Below, one piece after another: positions 2,598-28,804 of a stretch of 57,291 nucleotides of DNA. The stretch is from Phormidium tenue FACHB-1050 (lineage in GTDB: Bacteria > Cyanobacteriota > Cyanobacteriia > Pseudanabaenales > Pseudanabaenaceae): contig NZ_JACJQY010000039.1 of NCBI RefSeq assembly GCF_014696925.1, positions 1 to 57,291 on the forward strand, read 5' to 3'. Made by a program: the position numbers and the translations under genes. The notes below the pieces were generated by a model. That model did no database searches. It was not told the DNA's origin and worked only from the letters and a program-made list of their open reading frames with translations. The number at the start of each line of letters is the position of its first letter. Positions within the stretch are counted from its first letter, which is position 1.

Positions 2598-5462
2598 ATG
2601 CCAGACCATACCCATATCCACGTTAGAGGTGCTAGACAGCACAATCTCAAGAATGTTGACCTGACGATTCCCCGCGATCGCCTGATCGTGTTTACAGGTG
2701 TGTCTGGCTCTGGTAAGTCATCTCTCGCTTTTGACACGATTTTTGCCGAAGGACAACGCCGCTATGTGGAGTCGCTGAGTGCCTATGCGCGGCAATTTTT
2801 GGGACAAGTCGATAAGCCTGATGTGGACTACATAGAGGGTTTGAGTCCTGCGATTTCCATTGACCAAAAATCAACTTCCCATAACCCTCGCTCAACCGTC
2901 GGTACGGTCACCGAGATTTATGATTATTTGCGGCTATTATTTGGTCGTGCAGGTTCGCCACATTGCCCCATCTGCGATCGCAATATAGCGCCTCAGACCA
3001 TTGATCGGATGGTGGACTCGATTATGGAGCTTAGCGATCGCACTAAGTTTCAGTTGCTAGCACCCGTAATTCGTGGCAAAAAGGGAACTCATAAGAAATT
3101 ACTATCTACCCTAGCCAGTGAAGGCTTTGCACGGGTGCGGGTAGATGGAGAAGTGCGAGAGCTTAGTGACAATATCGAATTAGATAAAAACAAACTGCAT
3201 GATATTGAAATTGTGGTTGATCGTCTAGTTCGTAAAAATGATATTCAAGAACGTTTGACTGATTCCCTCGCAACTTGTTTAAAACGTGCCGAAGGGATTG
3301 CAATGGTCGAGATTTTGCCCTCATCCCCAGACCCTAAATCTGAGAAAGTTAGCAACCTGCTAACTTTCTCAGAAAACTTTGCCTGTCCTGAGCATGGCGC
3401 GGTAATGGAAGAACTATCGCCGCGCATGTTCTCCTTTAATTCTCCCTATGGCGCTTGTCCAGCCTGTCATGGATTGGGAAGTATTAAAACTTTTAGTCCT
3501 GAGTTGCTAGTTCCCGATCCATCTTTGCCAGTCTATGCTGCGATCGCGCCTTGGGCAGATAAAACCCATACTTATTACATTTCACTGTTATCCAGTGTTG
3601 GCGAATATGTAGGCTTTGAGATTACTGCACCTTGGGAAAAACTTACCCAGTCACAGATTGATATTATTTTGCATGGCACTACAGAGAAGATTTTAATTAA
3701 GCCAGACTCGCTCTATCGCGATCGCAGTGAGGGATATTACAAGCGCTATGAAGGTGCGATCGCTATTCTCGAACAGCAATATAAGGAAGCTGGAGAATCG
3801 CAAAGACAGAAGTTAGAGAACTATCTCATCGAAGAGTCTTGCTCGACTTGCGAAGGAACAAGGCTGAAACCAGAATCTCTCGCAGTGCGGATTGGTGGGT
3901 ATAACATTAACGATTTTGTGTCAGTGCCGATTGGGACTTGTCGCGATCGCCTCAAAAATCTCGATCTTGATGATCGGACAAGACAAATAGGCGATCGGGT
4001 CTTGCAAGAAATCGAAGCCAGATTGCAATTTCTGCTGGATGTGGGCTTAGATTACCTCACTCTTGATCGTTCTACCATGTCCCTCTCTGGCGGCGAAGCC
4101 CAACGTATCCGCCTTGCTACCCAAATTGGTTCTGGTTTGACAGGCGTTCTCTATGTTCTTGACGAGCCGAGCATAGGACTACATCAACGGGATAACTCGC
4201 GGCTGCTTGCGACATTAACCAAACTTCGCGATCTTGGGAATACCTTAATCGTGGTCGAACATGACGAAGAAACTATTCGTGCTGCTGACTATCTCGTAGA
4301 CATTGGTCCAGGGGCAGGAGTACATGGCGGTAAGATCGTCGCGCAGGGTACGGTCAAGGATATTGAGCAGCATCCTGAATCCCTCACAGGTGCTTATCTA
4401 TCTAAACAAAAGCTGATTCACACACCCGCAGAGCGTCGCGAAGGTAATGGCAAATATTTAGAGATTTGTAATGCCTATCTCAATAATCTGAAGCACGTCA
4501 ATGTCACACTTCCACTTGGTAAGCTAGTTTGTGTCACAGGTGTATCAGGTTCAGGCAAATCCACGCTTATTAATGACCTGCTCCATAATTCTCTAGATCA
4601 TCATTTTTCGCGCAAAGTACCAGCACCTAAAGGCATCGATGAAATTAAAGGACTCCAAGCTCTAGACAAATTCATCGTCATCGATCAATCTCCCATCGGA
4701 CGCACACCTCGTTCCAATCCTGCTACTTATACAGGCTTATTTGATGTCATTCGTGAAACCTTTGCACTGACGACGGCGGCGAAAACGAGAGGCTATAAAG
4801 CAGGACAGTTCTCTTTTAATGTTAAGGGTGGACGTTGTGAAGCTTGCTCTGGACAAGGTGTAAATGTTATCTCAATGAATTTTCTTCCCGATGTCTATGT
4901 GCAGTGTGATGTTTGCAAAGGCGCAAGATATAACCGTGAAACTCTGCAAGTTAAGTACAAAGAGAAGACGATCGCCGATGTGTTGGATATGACCATCGAA
5001 GAAGCAATGCACTTTTTTGAGAATATTCCTTCTGCTCATGCCAAATTAGGAATGCTAGTAGATGTCGGTTTAGGCTATGTGCGTCTCGGTCAGTCTGCGC
5101 CCACGCTCTCAGGTGGTGAAGCCCAACGGGTCAAGCTAGCCACAGAACTAGCGCGTCGAGCTACAGGTAAAACTCTCTATCTCATCGATGAACCGACTAC
5201 AGGTTTAAGTTTTTACGATGTACATAAACTCCTAGACGTGATGCAACGCCTTGTGGATAAAGGTAATAGCATTATTGCGATCGAGCATAATCTCGATGTG
5301 ATTCGTTGTGCCGACTGGGTGATTGATCTGGGGCCAGAGGGAGGCGATCGCGGTGGTGAGATTGTCGCTGAGGGTACGCCCGAACAGGTCGCCAAGGTCA
5401 AAAAATCCTATACTGGCAAGTATCTCAAACAAGTATTAGCGGATTACCCCCGTGCTAAGTAG
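2598..5462 (+). CDS. uvrA: Excinuclease ABC subunit UvrA
   Basis: UvrA scans DNA for bulky damage and loads UvrB in nucleotide excision repair. The 954 residues are normal for the family and hold two ABC ATPase halves: Walker A motifs [12 protein letters not shown] (about residue 34) and [12 protein letters not shown] (about 650), signature motifs [12 protein letters not shown] and [12 protein letters not shown], and Walker B regions [11 protein letters not shown] and [11 protein letters not shown]. Zinc-binding cysteine pairs are present ([30 protein letters not shown]). A perfect 16-bp palindrome is read in frame at 3339-3373, just before the conserved FACPEHG, and the protein seems about four residues longer there than the E. 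coli protein as remembered. The start ATG at 2598 begins [19 protein letters not shown], as expected. Confidence 0.97.
3339..3373. repeat. Perfect palindrome inside uvrA
   Basis: Bases 3339-3354 (tctgagaaagttagca) are the exact reverse complement of 3358-3373, with a three-base loop. The 16-bp stem is coding and gives residues [12 protein letters not shown]. Such a long perfect stem in a coding region is unlikely by chance and looks like an in-frame insertion of a small palindromic element, or of a hairpin derived by template switching. Confidence 0.85.
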
Positions 5463-7992: not shown

Positions 7993-10900
7993 ATAACACT
8001 GGTGAGCTACCTCCTCTAGATTGGAAAGTTTGATATACATAGTTATATTGGTCTTCTATATTCTCTAAAAGACTAGCAATTTTGCTGATATCTTCTTCAG
8101 TATGTGTCTTCGACTTGATTAACTTCTTGCAAATAGATTGTAGGGCTTGGCAAGAACTAAAAAGCTGGGCAGCTCCAAAGGTAGCACTTCCTCCTTTGAG
8201 GGCGTGATTATGGGCTTCAATCTTCACAAAGTCCTTAGTTTGAAAAGCCTCCTTCATTGTGGCGATCGCCTTTGCCGAATGTTCTAAATAGACATTGATT
8301 AATTCTTCTAAGTTCTGTGTACCTACAGAATCTTCTAGATTTGATAGGATCGATAAGTCAACAGGCGGCTGACTATGAATAGCAAGATGTTGATGTTGGG
8401 GAATCCTTTGTAACGCTGCTATTAAGCTGCTAGTTTTTAGAGGCTTAGTGAGATAGTCATTCATTCCTGCACTCATGGCTGACTCACGGGATTCTGAGAA
8501 AGCATTTGCTGATAGCCCAATGATCCAAGGTTGTTGACTTGGCAACTGGCGGATACTTTTGCTTGCAGTCAAGCCATTCATAATTGGCATTTGGATATCC
8601 ATAAAGATCAGATCGTAGGCTTGATCTAAGAAAGCATTGATGGCTTTCTGCCCATTTTCCGTAAAACCTGCTTTATAGCCTAAGTTTTCTAGCATCAATA
8701 GCAGAATCTTTTGATTGACAGGATTATCTTCGACAACCAAGATTTTAAATGGATAACATTGAGCAAAATTCTCATCTCTCAAAATCTCATCGCTTGCAAA
8801 TGGAGCTTGAGTTCTTGTATTAGTTGCATCTTGGGGGATAGTTGGGACTTTTTCACTAAAAATATTGCAAAAAGCTTGATAAAGTTTTGAGGCAGATATC
8901 GGCTTAGTGATGTAATCTCCAAAGCAAGCTAAATTGGCATTGTCATTCTCATTAAGAATGATGTTTACAGGGGTTAATAGAATTAAATTTAACTCAGGAA
9001 AAATTTCTTGAATGTGTTTAGCTAGTTCTAAACCATCCATTTGAGAACCATCAGATTCTATAAGTTGTCGGTCAATTAAAATTACATCAAAGTTCGATGT
9101 TGTCAATGATTGCAGCGCATTAGCGGCTGAGTAGACAGCCTGTAAGTTCATCTCCCACGGTTGCGTGTATAAAGCGATCGCCTGCTGGAGTGTCGAATTA
9201 GTGTTAACGCTTAAAATCCTCTTACCCCTCAGGTCTGGCGCGATCGCTGTAGTATCTTCGTCTTCAATAATGGCGCGTACTTGGATGGAGAAGCTGAAAG
9301 TAGAACCTTTACCGACATTGCTGCTAACCCCTATTTCACCGCCCATCAATTCGCAAAGTTGTTTACAAATTGCTAGTCCCAAACCAGTGCCGCCATATTG
9401 TCGCGCAATCGAATTATCAGCTTGACTAAAGGCTTTAAAAAGTTTGGAGATCGCTTCAGGAGCAATGCCAATTCCTGTATCGCTCACATCAAAATGCAAT
9501 TCGTAAGTGTTAGTCTGATGATCGATTAATCGCGAATTTACCGTAATAATAATTTCCCCAGATTCGGTAAATTTAATGGCGTTACTTACTAAATTGACGA
9601 GGATTTGACGTAAGCGCGTATAGTCTCCAATCAACTGTTGCGGGACATCTAGACTTACAAATGGGACTAGTTCTAGGAACTTCTCAGCCGTGCGTGATGA
9701 CATCAGTTCTAGAACTTCCTCAATACATTGTTGAAGTTTAAAAGGACGCTCTTCGAGTTCAAAATGTCCTGACTCAATTCGTGAGAAGTCAAGGATATTA
9801 TTAATTACCGATAGTAGTACTTCCCCACCTTGACGAATCGTAGTGACATATTGCTGCTGTTGCCGCGTTAGGGGCGTACTTTCTAAAATCTCGGTCATTC
9901 CAATCACAGCATTCATCGGAGTTCGCAGTTCATGACTCATGACAGCGAGAAATTCGCTTTTAGCTTTGTTTGACAACTCGGCTACTCGCGCCGCCGCTAG
10001 TTTGGCTTCAGTTTGTTTGCGCTCAGTTACATCTTCTACCCCAGCGACAAATTGAATTGGCTTGCCATTTTCATCTCGCACTAGTCCAAATCGACTAATC
10101 ACATCGATCGCATGACCATTTTTATGGATATATTGTTTCTCCAGTTCACCACTAGTTGCTTCATTCGCAATTAAGCGATGGAGAGCCGTTAATGTTTTTT
10201 CAACAGAATTGGGATGAGTCAGTTCAATTGCTGTCATAGCCAGCAATTCTGCTTCGGTATATCCAAATGTTGTACAGAAGCCCTGATTTACCATCAAAAA
10301 TTTACCTTCTAAATCAAAGGTGGCAATCCCTATTGGTACATTGGCGAGTGTTAACTTAAGTAAGGCTTCACTCTGAAGTAGTTTTGCTTCTACAAGTTTG
10401 CGATCGCTAATATCTTGAGCCGTTCCATAAAGATTAATAATGCTTCCATGATCGTCATATTCCGCATGACCAAATGCTTCAATGTAAATATAGGATTCAT
10501 CAGATTTTTGGACACGTAAGTCTAAATGATATGAACCGCCATTTTTGACGGCATTATCAACTGCTTGAATGTGTTTTTGGCGATCTTCTTCTACATAATA
10601 TTGCAAAATCTCCTCATAACTGGGGACACCTAAATTTGGATCACGTCCAAAAATATGAAATAATTCGTCTGACCAAATGGTTTTCTGCTCAATGACATTC
10701 CATTCCCAATTACCAATCTTGGCGATTTGTTGAGCTTTTGCTAGGATTGACTGACTTTTGCGTAAAGTTTTTTCAGTCGCTTTGAGTTCACTAATATCTC
10801 TACCTTCAGGAATTAGTAAAATCACTTGTCCCGATTCATCTTTGAGAGGACGGAGCGAGAAATCGATAGTTGTAATTGTCTGACCAGCGCCAAATATATC

Positions 10901-18233: not shown

Positions 18234-18689
18234 ATGACTGATAGTAATGACAGTTTAATTGTCAAGCCCAAAAAATCTGGACTAGCGCCACTAATTCTCA
18301 CATTAGTAGAACTGTTGCGTCAGTTAATGGAAGCCCAAGTAATTCGACGGATGGATGCTGAAAAGTTAACTGAATCTGAAATAGAGAAAGCCGCCGATAG
18401 TTTGCAAGCTTTAGAACAGCAGATTTTTAATCTTTGCGAAGTTCTCGATATCGATCCTGAAGACCTGAATCTTGATTTAGGTGAATTTGGCAAACTACTG
18501 CCTAGACGTGGTGCATATTATCCCGACAAATCATCAAGTGAATCATCAATTTTGGAATTGCTCGATCGCTTAATCAGTACAGGAATCGTTTTAGAAGGTG
18601 ATGTACAAATAGGCTTAGCTGACATTAATTTAATAGACCTCAAGTTGAAATTATTACTAACTTCAGGCGATAAATCTGCATCTCATTAA
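18234..18689 (+). CDS. gvpK: Gas vesicle protein GvpK, with GvpA/J/S-like C-terminal part
   Basis: The first 95 or so residues match GvpK (LAPLILTLVELLRQLMEAQ, then VIRRMDAEKLTESEIEKAA and DPEDLNLDLGEFGKLLP). After a linker (RRGAYYPDKSSSE) comes a segment, SILELLDRLISTGIVLEGD then VQIGLADINLIDLKLKLLL, that has the LLDRxLxxGxVLxGD pattern of the GvpA/J/S family. I recall a similar extension in other cyanobacterial GvpK proteins, so it may not be unique. GvpK is a minor protein needed for gas vesicle assembly. No other gvp gene is in the window, so it is separated from the usual cluster. Confidence 0.87.
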   Translation: MTDSNDSLIVKPKKSGLAPLILTLVELLRQLMEAQVIRRMDAEKLTESEIEKAADSLQALEQQIFNLCEVLDIDPEDLNLDLGEFGKLLPRRGAYYPDKSSSESSILELLDRLISTGIVLEGDVQIGLADINLIDLKLKLLLTSGDKSASH

Positions 18690-18700
18690 CATCATTGCAT

Positions 18701-18746
18701 TGATTAATCGTAGGGGCAATTCATGAATTGCCCCTACGATTAATCA
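18701..18746. repeat. 46-base perfect palindrome covering the larC stop
   Basis: The whole 46 bases equal their own reverse complement (tgattaatcgtaggggcaat tca and back). It contains the word aggggcaattcatgaattgcccct, related to the palindrome at 17302-17337, and includes the stop codon of the larC C-terminal frame (18721-18723). It separates convergent gvpK and larC and may act as a terminator. Confidence 0.92.
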
Positions 18747-19209
18747 ATTCTCCCGCTAGTTTAACTATTTCTTGAACTCGAATTAATGGAATATTATGCG
18801 ATCGCGCTAACTTTGCACAGTCCTCATATTCTGGCTGAATCGTACAGAATCCATCGCGCCATGCAATCTTGACCCGCGCCTTGCCATATTCCGTTTCGAC
18901 TTCATGAATTTCCCGATAGAGAATTTTACGCTCCTGTAATCGATACCTAATGCCGAGAGTACTGGTTTCCCGAAACAGAATTTGCTCACAAATGGTTTGG
19001 CGATCGCAGGGACAAGTAACCGTAATCAGTATTCCATTGCGCGATTTCTTCATGCCGATCGCTTGGGTATAAACATCAAGAGCGCCATTTTCCAATAACT
19101 GCTCCATGGTATAGGCGATCGCCTGTGCAGTCATGTCATCGACTTGCGTTTCTAAAACAGCGATGGTTTCGACAGTTTGAAACCCTTGAAGTAAAGGAAC
19201 ATCGGGCAA
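18721..19209 (-). CDS. larC: LarC nickel-pincer cofactor synthase, C-terminal part (second frame)
   Basis: This frame encodes the C-terminal domain of LarC, beginning around TVETIAVLETQVDDMTAQ and containing GMKKSRNGILITVTCP and RLQERKILYREIHEVET. LarC inserts nickel, using CTP, into the pincer nucleotide cofactor first found in lactate racemase. The listed start is a weak TTG. The frame stays open further upstream, through the hairpin to the A9 run at 19236-19244, reading KKTLEVKEHRALPDVPLLQG. It is therefore probably expressed by a -1 shift from the upstream frame (19224-20114), giving a protein of about 464 residues, rather than from its own start. Confidence 0.85.
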   Translation of the reverse strand: MPDVPLLQGFQTVETIAVLETQVDDMTAQAIAYTMEQLLENGALDVYTQAIGMKKSRNGILITVTCPCDRQTICEQILFRETSTLGIRYRLQERKILYREIHEVETEYGKARVKIAWRDGFCTIQPEYEDCAKLARSHNIPLIRVQEIVKLAGELINRRGNS

Positions 19210-19244
19210 CGCCCGATGTTCCTTTACTTCAAGGGTTTTTTTTT
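19180..19244 (-). promoter_or_regulatory. Putative -1 frameshift element of larC: A9 run plus 28-bp hairpin
   Basis: Read on the minus strand, the first larC frame reaches nine A residues (19244-19236) in phase as AAA AAA AAA, offering an A AAA AAA heptamer. Directly after it comes a perfect 28-bp stem (19238-19211 with 19207-19180; three-base loop). The first frame stops at 19226-19224 within the stem, and the -1 frame continues into the rest of LarC. Ribosomal or transcriptional slippage would give full-length protein. Alternatively the hairpin is an inserted palindrome that broke the gene. Confidence 0.7.
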
Positions 19245-20114
19245 GCTCTTACCAATCCATAGCCGCAAAGTATTTGGAATTTCTAGATCTTGCGTACCAG
19301 CACCTAAACCCACTTTTTTGATTTTCATTAAGGGAACTTCACCAAAACTTTCACTGAGAGTTACGGCGATCGCTGCCCCTGTGGGTGTGACTAATTCCTT
19401 CCTAATACCATTATCAAACGTAGTCACCCCATGCATTTCCCACAATTTCAATGTAGCAGGTGCTGGCACTGGCATTTTGCCATGATCGCAATTTACATAT
19501 CCTCCACCCGCAGGCAAAGCTGAGCAATAGATTTTTTCAACTTCTAACCATGCAAATCCTGCACAGGTACAGACAATATCAACGATCGCATCGATCGCCC
19601 CCACTTCGTGAAAATGTACTGCTTCGGGCGCAATGCCATGTACTGCTCCTTCCGCGATCGCTAGTTCTTTAAATGTTGCTAAACTCCAAACTTCAACCTG
19701 TTTAGGTAATTTAGCATCACGAATGATCTTCTCAATATCGGGTAAGTGACGATGAACTGGATGGGAATGCGCTTTATGGGAATGTGGCTTATGGGAATGC
19801 TCATGGCTATGGGAATCATGATTATGTTCTTCATGGCTATGGGAATGACCATGATCAGAATGAGAATGAGATTGTTCAGCCGCAATGGTGGGTGGCTCAG
19901 CACCGCTATAGTCTAGTAATTCGACATGCATTTTTGTGGCTGCAATCCCACCTCTATGAACAGATTCTGTCCACAGCTTCACTTCGCGATCGAGTCCTAA
20001 TTGATGAACAATATTTTGCAAATACTCTAAAGGTACACCTGCACTCACCAACGCACCTAAGCACATGTCACCTGCAATTCCTGTCGGACAATCCAAATAT
20101 GCAACGATTCCCAT
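19224..20114 (-). CDS. larC: LarC nickel-pincer cofactor synthase, N-terminal part (first frame)
   Basis: The N-terminal LarC (DUF111) domain: MGIVAYLDCPTGIAGDMCLG, a histidine-rich stretch of about 45 residues (SHSHSDHGHSHSHEEHNHD and more) that suits metal binding, then VHFHEVGAIDAIVDIVCTC, and ELVTPTGAAIAVTL. The start at 20114 (MGIV) fits the family better than a further upstream ATG at 20150. The frame ends GKSKKKPLK at a stop inside a hairpin; the remaining third of LarC is in the -1 frame. Lactobacillus LarC is also made by frameshifting between two frames, as I recall, so this arrangement may be functional. No larA or larB is nearby. Confidence 0.9.
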   Translation of the reverse strand: MGIVAYLDCPTGIAGDMCLGALVSAGVPLEYLQNIVHQLGLDREVKLWTESVHRGGIAATKMHVELLDYSGAEPPTIAAEQSHSHSDHGHSHSHEEHNHDSHSHEHSHKPHSHKAHSHPVHRHLPDIEKIIRDAKLPKQVEVWSLATFKELAIAEGAVHGIAPEAVHFHEVGAIDAIVDIVCTCAGFAWLEVEKIYCSALPAGGGYVNCDHGKMPVPAPATLKLWEMHGVTTFDNGIRKELVTPTGAAIAVTLSESFGEVPLMKIKKVGLGAGTQDLEIPNTLRLWIGKSKKKPLK

Positions 20115-20167
20115 GCTAAGCCTTACGAAATTTATAAAAACAACCTGCAACTGAATCCTAACATTTC

Positions 20168-20222
20168 AAAACCCCAAACTTGTGAGGCGGCGCTTTGCAC
20201 CGCCTCACAAGTTTGAGGTTTT
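20168..20222. repeat. Palindromic element B (GGCGC family)
   Basis: The stem runs from aaaacccc at 20168 to ggtttt at 20222, with core gaggcggcgc-ttt-gcaccgcctc. Two mismatches break the stem. The right flank tatcctaggcaaaact is the conserved L-side flank, also seen right of elements C and E. Confidence 0.88.
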
Positions 20223-20297
20223 ATATCCTAGGCAAAACTACTCTGAAGAACAAGTGGCTTAAGCCACTTGCCTTTCTTACAAAAGATTTTGGCTTTC

Positions 20298-26091: not shown

Positions 26092-26214
26092 TGTATAGCA
26101 AAAAAAGAGTTAGCTAGTACAAACCAAAACCAAAGAATCGAGTGGCGGCGCGAAGCGCCGCCACTCGATTCTTTGGTTTTTATGTCCTAAGCAAAACTTG
26201 CTTTGCTGTAGCTA
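26092..26214. repeat. Palindromic element E (GGCGC family)
   Basis: Perfect 26-bp stem: 26126-26151 with 26155-26180, loop gaa. The arm is ccaaagaatcgag followed by tggcggcgc. The left flank is gagttagctagtacaaacc and the right flank is tatgtcctaagcaaaactt. Outer words tatagcaaa and tttgctgtag are near-inverted. Confidence 0.92.
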
Positions 26215-26229
26215 GTCAAGTCAGGATAT

Positions 26230-26284
26230 AAAACCCAGAATAAAAGTGGCGGCGCGAAGCGCCGCCACTTTTATTCTGGGTTTT
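26230..26284. repeat. Palindromic element F (GGCGC family), inverted relative to E
   Basis: Perfect 26-bp stem: 26230-26255 with 26259-26284, loop gaa. The arm cccagaataaaag differs from all other copies yet is perfectly complementary to its partner arm. The left flank (gtcaggatat) faces the L-side flank of element E, repeating the C/D arrangement. Confidence 0.92.
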
Positions 26285-28408: not shown

Positions 28409-28804
28409 AATTCAGTCCGTCACTCCTCGCATTTAAATAGCAACCAACATACTTTACTCAAAGCATCTTCTGATAGCTCCTACGTCACAATCATCATGCT
28501 ATCGGGTAAAGATGTTTATGTCTGTATATTGGCATAACAGATTGTAGTACAAACCTAGAAATTTAGAGATATTACACATAAAAGTCTCTAGATTTTGCAA
28601 GCAAAATTTGAAGGACATAAAACCAAAAAGATGAGTGGCGGCGCGAAGCGCCGCCACTCATCTTTTTGGTTTTGATGGGTAGAATCTGTACATGCCAAAA
28701 CTGCTTTGATCGGAAAACAGTAATTCACACCTCACGCCCCTTCTGCTTTCTAAGCTTTAATATTAGGTATAACGTCGCAACAAATTCTACAGACTGTATC
28801 TAAA
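28409..28804. repeat. 396-base divergent intergenic region with element G
   Basis: This region lies between tolC-like (minus) and pepA (plus). It must hold both promoters; no clear boxes were called. The only conspicuous structure is the palindromic element G. Confidence 0.7.
28619..28673. repeat. Palindromic element G (GGCGC family)
   Basis: Perfect 26-bp stem: 28619-28644 with 28648-28673, loop gaa. The arm (ccaaaaagatgag) equals that of element C. The left flank aaggacat is conserved, but the right flank gatgggtagaatc departs from other copies. The opposite flank is therefore worn or truncated. Confidence 0.92.

Follow-up and report, generated by a model that had tools for sequence, protein, structure and literature searches.

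The 5.63-Mb genome of Phormidium tenue FACHB-1050 carries larC, the gene of the nickel insertase LarC, in two overlapping reading frames. The gene lies on the minus strand, from 20114 to 18721, of the 57,291-nt stretch analysed here (contig NZ_JACJQY010000039.1, hereafter the window, in whose numbering positions are given unless another genome is named). The features to which we refer below are the following:

19227..20114, minus strand: N-terminal part of LarC, LarC1 frame, 296 aa, matching the TIGR00299 and PF01969 profiles
18721..19236, minus strand: C-terminal part of LarC with the LarC2 domain, −1 frame, A9-CC to TGA (171 aa)
19224..19248, minus strand: 25 nt open in both frames by ORF reading, the obligatory place of the frame change
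19236..19244, minus strand: A9 slippery run (T9 on the plus strand), AAA AAA AAA in the LarC1 frame, containing A_AAA_AAA
19180..19238, minus strand: perfect 28-bp hairpin with a 3-nt loop (arms 19180-19207 and 19211-19238), presumed stimulator
18699..18748, no strand: 25-bp perfect palindrome over the larC stop codon, found by hairpin search, one of the many in this genome
20168-20222, 20330-20384 and 20443-20497, no strand: intergenic copies of a dispersed palindrome, near core
26126-26180, 26230-26284 and 28619-28673, no strand: intergenic copies of the dispersed palindrome, exact core

The LarC1 frame opens with the ATG at 20114 and closes with the TAA at 19226-19224, and its product matches TIGR00299 (nickel_LarC1) with an E-value of 5.7e-64 and PF01969 over positions 1-238 of 375. 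The −1 frame contains no stop from 19248 until the TGA at 18723-18721, at the end of the LarC C-terminal domain; its product matches NF052512 (nickel_LarC2, E-value 2.5e-43), positions 241-374 of PF01969 and the solved LarC chains PDB 6bwo and 12bi. Both halves of LarC are thus present, jointly spanning almost the whole PF01969 profile, and by computation a −1 step on the A9 run would join 293 and 171 residues into a 464-aa protein. An earlier note on this DNA had given the right coordinates without the strand of the gene, and its description of a LarC1 frame that ends just after A9, with a −1 frame open into the C-terminal domain, was borne out on both counts. As the palindrome at 18699-18748 spans the larC stop, the last residues of LarC are encoded within it.

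To see how the gene is laid out in close relatives, a comparison that the earlier note had called for, we examined 38 genomes of the family, 37 of which have larC. Of these 37 genes, 34 encode the C domain in the −1 frame relative to the N domain. The split layout is found in all 25 larC genes of the host genus and in nine of the 12 family genes outside it, and the three continuous genes (G026, G033 and G058) are those of all three genomes of one other genus, g2. One member of the host genus that is 99% complete, G014, gave no larC match at all. An A-run lies within the overlap of the two frames in every one of the 34 split genes. The overlap is only 13 nt long, including most of the run, in eight genomes (G002, G004, G020, G021, G023, G024, G025 and G029), and reaches 529 nt in G030 and 227 nt in G059, long enough for an A-run to carry less weight as evidence. 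The split is therefore not specific to the strain, and insertion of a strain-specific hairpin was rejected as its cause.

The downstream half evolves as protein-coding sequence. Comparing the host with 24 members of the genus, dN/dS of the C part in the −1 frame was 0.06-0.20 in 22 of the 24 pairs, and that of the last 150 codons of the N part was 0.02-0.08; dS was saturated in two of the pairs (G001 and G011), and G023 and G025 are near copies. By these comparisons, purifying selection acts on the −1 frame of the downstream half, a genuine coding sequence. Hence it is extremely unlikely that the split reflects a sequencing error, a pseudogene or a strain-specific insertion, with the hairpin an ordinary palindrome and no full protein made: the 25 genomes of the genus, two of them in one contig, concur on the split, the dN/dS values speak against a pseudogene, and LarB and LarE score above cut-offs in the same genome. 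As read from the sequences, the split, its −1 direction, its conservation, the slippery run and the selection on the downstream frame are properties of larC in this family.

The two halves could also be translated separately and assemble as LarC1 and LarC2, the latter made by reinitiation near the LarC1 stop. Such a layout appears to exist in a plasmid gene pair of Paenibacillus cellulositrophicus, whose larC2 is annotated from its own start, an ATG preceded by AGGAG, and in the window a TTG lies in the hairpin loop with an AGGA upstream. We searched each split gene for ATG, GTG and TTG (CTG and ATT were not counted), over a stretch beginning no more than 40 nt ahead of the run and ending 30 nt inside the C domain. 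At least one of these codons was present in 24 of the 34 genes and none in the remaining ten, and a Shine-Dalgarno-like match accompanied the candidate start only in the host, where it falls within the stem, and in G022. A separate start of the C part is accordingly unlikely as a general device, judging by these counts, and separate translation, which would leave the A-run of all 34 genes unexplained, is very improbable.

The run itself is conspicuous. We took 457 kb of the host genome as a sample, made up of the window and 20 stretches of 20 kb each. Among its 343 ORFs (382,143 nt), only larC contains a sense-strand run of nine or more A's, the A9. Shuffling codons gave a mean of 11.2 such runs with a minimum of 5 (n = 100), and shuffling synonymous codons a mean of 5.0 with a minimum of 1 (n = 100), against the one observed. 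In the larC genes of the genus nine or more A's are kept in 25 of 25, never fewer, and an uninterrupted run of about nine A's, as transcriptional slippage would use, is found in the host and overall in 31 of the 34 split genes; G059 has A8, and in a sister genus G031 and G060 have only six A's followed by G, which form A_AAA_AAG in the correct phase with a stop directly after. The host run contains a heptamer of the X_XXY_YYZ type in the correct phase, A_AAA_AAA, but this is inherent in any A9, so that the heptamer alone is weak evidence for ribosomal slipping.

A run of this kind brings RNA polymerase into consideration, which might add one A at A9 in some of the mRNAs and so yield full LarC by programmed transcriptional realignment. 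The retention of nine or more A's in a genome whose ORFs otherwise rarely contain them is in line with this explanation, and the strict nine A's where A_AAA_AAG would serve could indicate polymerase slippage; the portion of PMC3711429 that we consulted names runs of more than seven A's as sites of polymerase slippage and infers such slippage for poly-A dnaX genes. The A6 runs of G031 and G060 are shorter than that, and their A_AAA_AAG with its immediate stop is an informative heptamer, which supports the ribosome. Nor would polymerase slippage be expected to need the hairpins that recur in the genus, which overlap the run or follow it at distances of up to about 10 nt. We regard realignment as unlikely, though worth keeping in mind, and slippage by ribosome and by RNA polymerase may both contribute.

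The perfect 28-bp stem described in the earlier note was confirmed, as was its overlap with A9: the base of the stem takes in the last three A's. A 131-nt stretch of the RNA folds with a minimum free energy of −61.9 kcal/mol (z −8.7), and none of 200 shuffled sequences was equally stable. Omitting the first 8 nt past the run, 17 bp of the host stem remain and the 60-nt fold has −31.7 kcal/mol, so that a ribosomal stimulator need not be impaired by the stem reaching into the run. The geometry, unusual in the words of the earlier note, recurs in a few relatives in which the base of the stem is also inside the run; in the others the stem begins up to about 10 nt past the run. A strong stem (z < −2.5) at or after the run was found in 15 of the 34 split genes, all in the host genus (15 of 25, the host included), and in these 15 the junction window ranked 2-12 in stability among the 193-261 windows per gene. 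The other 19 do not have it; they include all nine split genes of other genera, where the lowest z was −2.3 (G028). In 20 continuous larC genes that we folded, no comparable structure was seen at the junction (z −0.98 or higher). Since a strong hairpin is missing from ten of the 25 split genes of the genus and from nine of the nine of other genera, it cannot be essential, and the junction stems that exist fall into several sequence types across the genus. The weight that the earlier note had put on the hairpin is corrected accordingly: from the comparison of relatives, what is conserved at the larC junction is the A-run, and the hairpin can be absent and differs in sequence between genomes.

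As sequence features, the hairpins that lie at the run or shortly behind it in 15 genomes argue for a ribosomal slip. We looked for selection on the pairing in seven genomes chosen for hairpins like that of the host. In this host-type stem 94.9% of the cells pair, and at ten of the 28 pairs both sides have changed with pairing kept (0 or 1 in slid controls). Covariation was nevertheless rejected as proof of selection on the RNA, because correction by template switching could also yield the ten double changes; template switching in replication might also keep the intergenic palindromes of this genome perfect. Read on the plus strand, the hairpin and T9 resemble an intrinsic terminator, which could stop antisense transcription from the convergent neighbour and have no role in a frame change. 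Three of the five terminator-like matches in 18650-20250 are indeed the larC hairpin read in this direction. Species differ, however, in the spacing between stem and run, from overlap to a gap of about 10 nt, and such variation should disrupt a terminator; it is also the run that is conserved and not the hairpin, even where no strong hairpin exists. A terminator in place of a frameshift site is thus most improbable, though termination could be an additional effect of the hairpin.

Perfect hairpins are common in this genome. With a stem of at least 15 bp there are 201 in the 457-kb sample, 159 of them intergenic, 39 at an ORF edge and three deep within ORFs; the larC hairpin counts among the 39 because both half-ORFs end within it. 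The only three that lie more than 60 nt inside ORFs are at 3339-3373 of the window, at 10607-10661 of sampled stretch L096 and at 9804-9840 of L109. The genome also contains a family of dispersed palindromes with the core GGCGGCGC-NNN-GCGCCGCC and, in the window, the ends AAAACC...GGTTTT (one copy is off by a base), for which a literature search on Pseudanabaena palindromes returned no name. The core GGCGGCGCNNNGCGCCGCC occurs at 430 places in the host genome and at 17 to 430 per genome over 26 genomes of the genus (0 for the control in each), and the outer stems vary from copy to copy yet still pair. This abundance favours the view of the larC hairpin as an ordinary palindrome. The host hairpin has a core that differs from that of the dispersed palindrome, and a repeat family was rejected as its source: its own core, TCGGGCNNNGCCCGA, is found at this one place in the genome, and the 91-nt hairpin stretch matches only itself.

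In G011 the situation is different. Its larC hairpin (C5:37628-37648) is one of 14 copies of a longer core, GGGCGGCGCNNNGCGCCGCCC, and the GGCGGCGC palindrome occurs in the larC hairpin exactly only in this genome, with one mismatch in G007. As the G011 hairpin is a copy of the dispersed core, a palindrome either became the hairpin of the frameshift site in one lineage or arose there likewise, and we infer that it could act as a stimulator. A tentative and rather doubtful extension is that, across the genus, the fixed run repeatedly acquired different hairpins, certain ones being copies of the dispersed palindromes, so that a mobile or self-copying family would supply the stimulators; if true, this exchange of hairpins would retune LarC output from species to species.

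Taken with the split and A-run in 34 of 37 family genes and the purifying selection on the −1 frame, the programmed frameshift proposed in the earlier note is supported. That larC is recoded into full LarC, whichever machine slips, is very probable on these data. That the recoding is a programmed −1 slip of the ribosome, giving both LarC1 and full LarC, is in our estimate about 70% probable; the ribosome rather than RNA polymerase as the slipping machine, stimulation by the hairpin and the efficiency of the slip are what we infer beyond the sequence patterns. Under a ribosomal slip, some ribosomes would stay in the LarC1 frame and stop at the TAA, releasing the 296-aa N-terminal protein. A fraction would slip back by one base on A_AAA_AAA within A9, presumably helped in the host by the hairpin ahead of the ribosome, and would continue in the −1 frame to produce the 464-aa LarC (...GKSKKK-TLEVKEHR...). 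A Shine-Dalgarno-like stimulator some 10-14 nt upstream is an optional element of bacterial −1 sites. None of AGGA, GGAG, GAGG and AAGG occurs within 24 nt upstream of the host site, and the matches found upstream of the site in eight of the 34 split genes are 5-7 nt away and not 10-14.

Outside the family larC is mostly a single frame. It is continuous in all 23 genomes that we first sampled from other families (17 + 6), and a search of the whole class gave a larC match in 280 of 291 genomes. Among the matches listed, we followed up five rows from outside the family with an open frame below 340 aa (G237, G068, G255, G221 and G191). One of these, G237 of another family (L124, G237:C167:31500-36000), has an A9 −1 split at the same boundary with a 13-nt overlap; its six genus mates have open larC frames of 453-518 aa. 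G068 (L123, G068:C73:34000-38500) encodes the C domain in the −1 frame with an 85-nt overlap and no homopolymer run, which may be a sequencing error, a recent mutation or another kind of site. The C domain of G255 is in the other frame, and no C domain was found in the stretches taken from G221 and G191. In a LarC tree of 61 rows, 17 of whose 57 inner branches are well supported, the family genes group together (98/93) and G237 stands apart, which suggests two or more origins of the split layout in cyanobacteria. Three changes of layout are required on the tree, the independent G237 included, and the three continuous family genes imply either a single loss of the split or more than one gain. 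The literature that we searched, to which most subscription papers did not belong, contained no report of larC recoding in cyanobacteria.

Of the partners of LarC in the host, LarE (C15, E-value 5.6e-92) and LarB (C44, E-value 3.8e-86) are both above cut-offs, and a profile search of the host genome with the N domain of LarA, PF09861, gave no match. With LarB, LarE and a split LarC but no LarA match, the nickel-pincer cofactor would serve a protein other than LarA. This fits a statement in the text of PMC11796402 that some genomes, including those of many cyanobacteria, have homologs of larB, larE and larC without larA; the same text reports that Synechocystis LarC is functional in an E. coli Duet system. 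Since the split shares its boundary and type of run with that of Lactobacillus and is kept by most of a family, synthesis of the nickel-pincer cofactor may be sensitive to how much LarC1 is made relative to full LarC. The genus offers a natural series, in which the slippery site is constant and hairpins are present, absent or exchanged, and in which the role of a stimulator is directly measurable.

Comparable sites are known. In dnaX of the E. coli type a hairpin lies downstream of the slippery site. The larC site shares with dnaX an A-rich slippery sequence, which in dnaX of the Thermus and Chlorobi kind is a long poly-A according to PMC3711429. It differs from dnaX in two ways: host larC has no Shine-Dalgarno-like stimulator at the expected distance, and its product would be a complete two-domain enzyme, which the cyanobacterial families first sampled beyond this one encode in one ORF.

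DUF111 is presumably the earlier name of PF01969. For DUF111 genes, the consulted part of Antonov et al. (2013; PMC3711429) gives frameshifting of up to 39% in E. coli reporter tests, and for magnesium chelatase constructs 10, 40 and 63% with 7, 9 and 11 A's. The DUF111 cluster, whose organisms are unnamed in that part, resembles larC in its gene family and in a frameshift between two ORFs.

The closest parallel is the larC of Lactobacillus, whose frameshift was reportedly described by Desguin and colleagues and with which the earlier note had compared the host gene. We checked it in plasmid larC genes of Lactobacillaceae, reading four of 14 matches. Two of them, in Lactiplantibacillus plantarum Heal19 and Lacticaseibacillus paracasei W56, have GAA AAA AAA AAC TAA, where C-TAA comes directly after an A10, and their −1 frame continues into the C domain without a stop. 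In L. paracasei CBA3611 an A11 lies in a single continuous frame of 1263 nt, and the gene of L. plantarum TS12 is continuous with no run. Elsewhere, Paenibacillus has two annotated larC genes with a separate start and AGGAG, the gene of Acetoanaerobium is continuous, and in Niallia the parts are in different frames. LarC thus exists in fused, A-run-split and separate forms, and where the A-run split recurs its design is the same. In the parts of the literature available to us, larC1 and larC2 are given merely as genes of the lactate racemase operon (PMC3496567), larC is not mentioned in PMC5009743, and reading frames are not mentioned in PMC7583248.

The host gene agrees with Lactobacillus larC1/larC2 in the gene itself, the boundary between N and C domains, the −1 direction and the A-run. 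Heal19 larC also has a predicted downstream stem-loop (z −4.2), and the host hairpin is longer and perfect. Unlike the lactate racemase operon of Lactobacillus, the host has no LarA match, and the split of its family is apparently of independent origin, as judged from the continuous genes of all 23 genomes first sampled in other cyanobacterial families: recoding of larC very probably arose separately in cyanobacteria and was then retained by most of a family. To the known −1 recoding of larC at poly-A, larC of P. tenue thus appears to add a conserved and apparently independent case, with a hairpin that is unusually strong and not universal.
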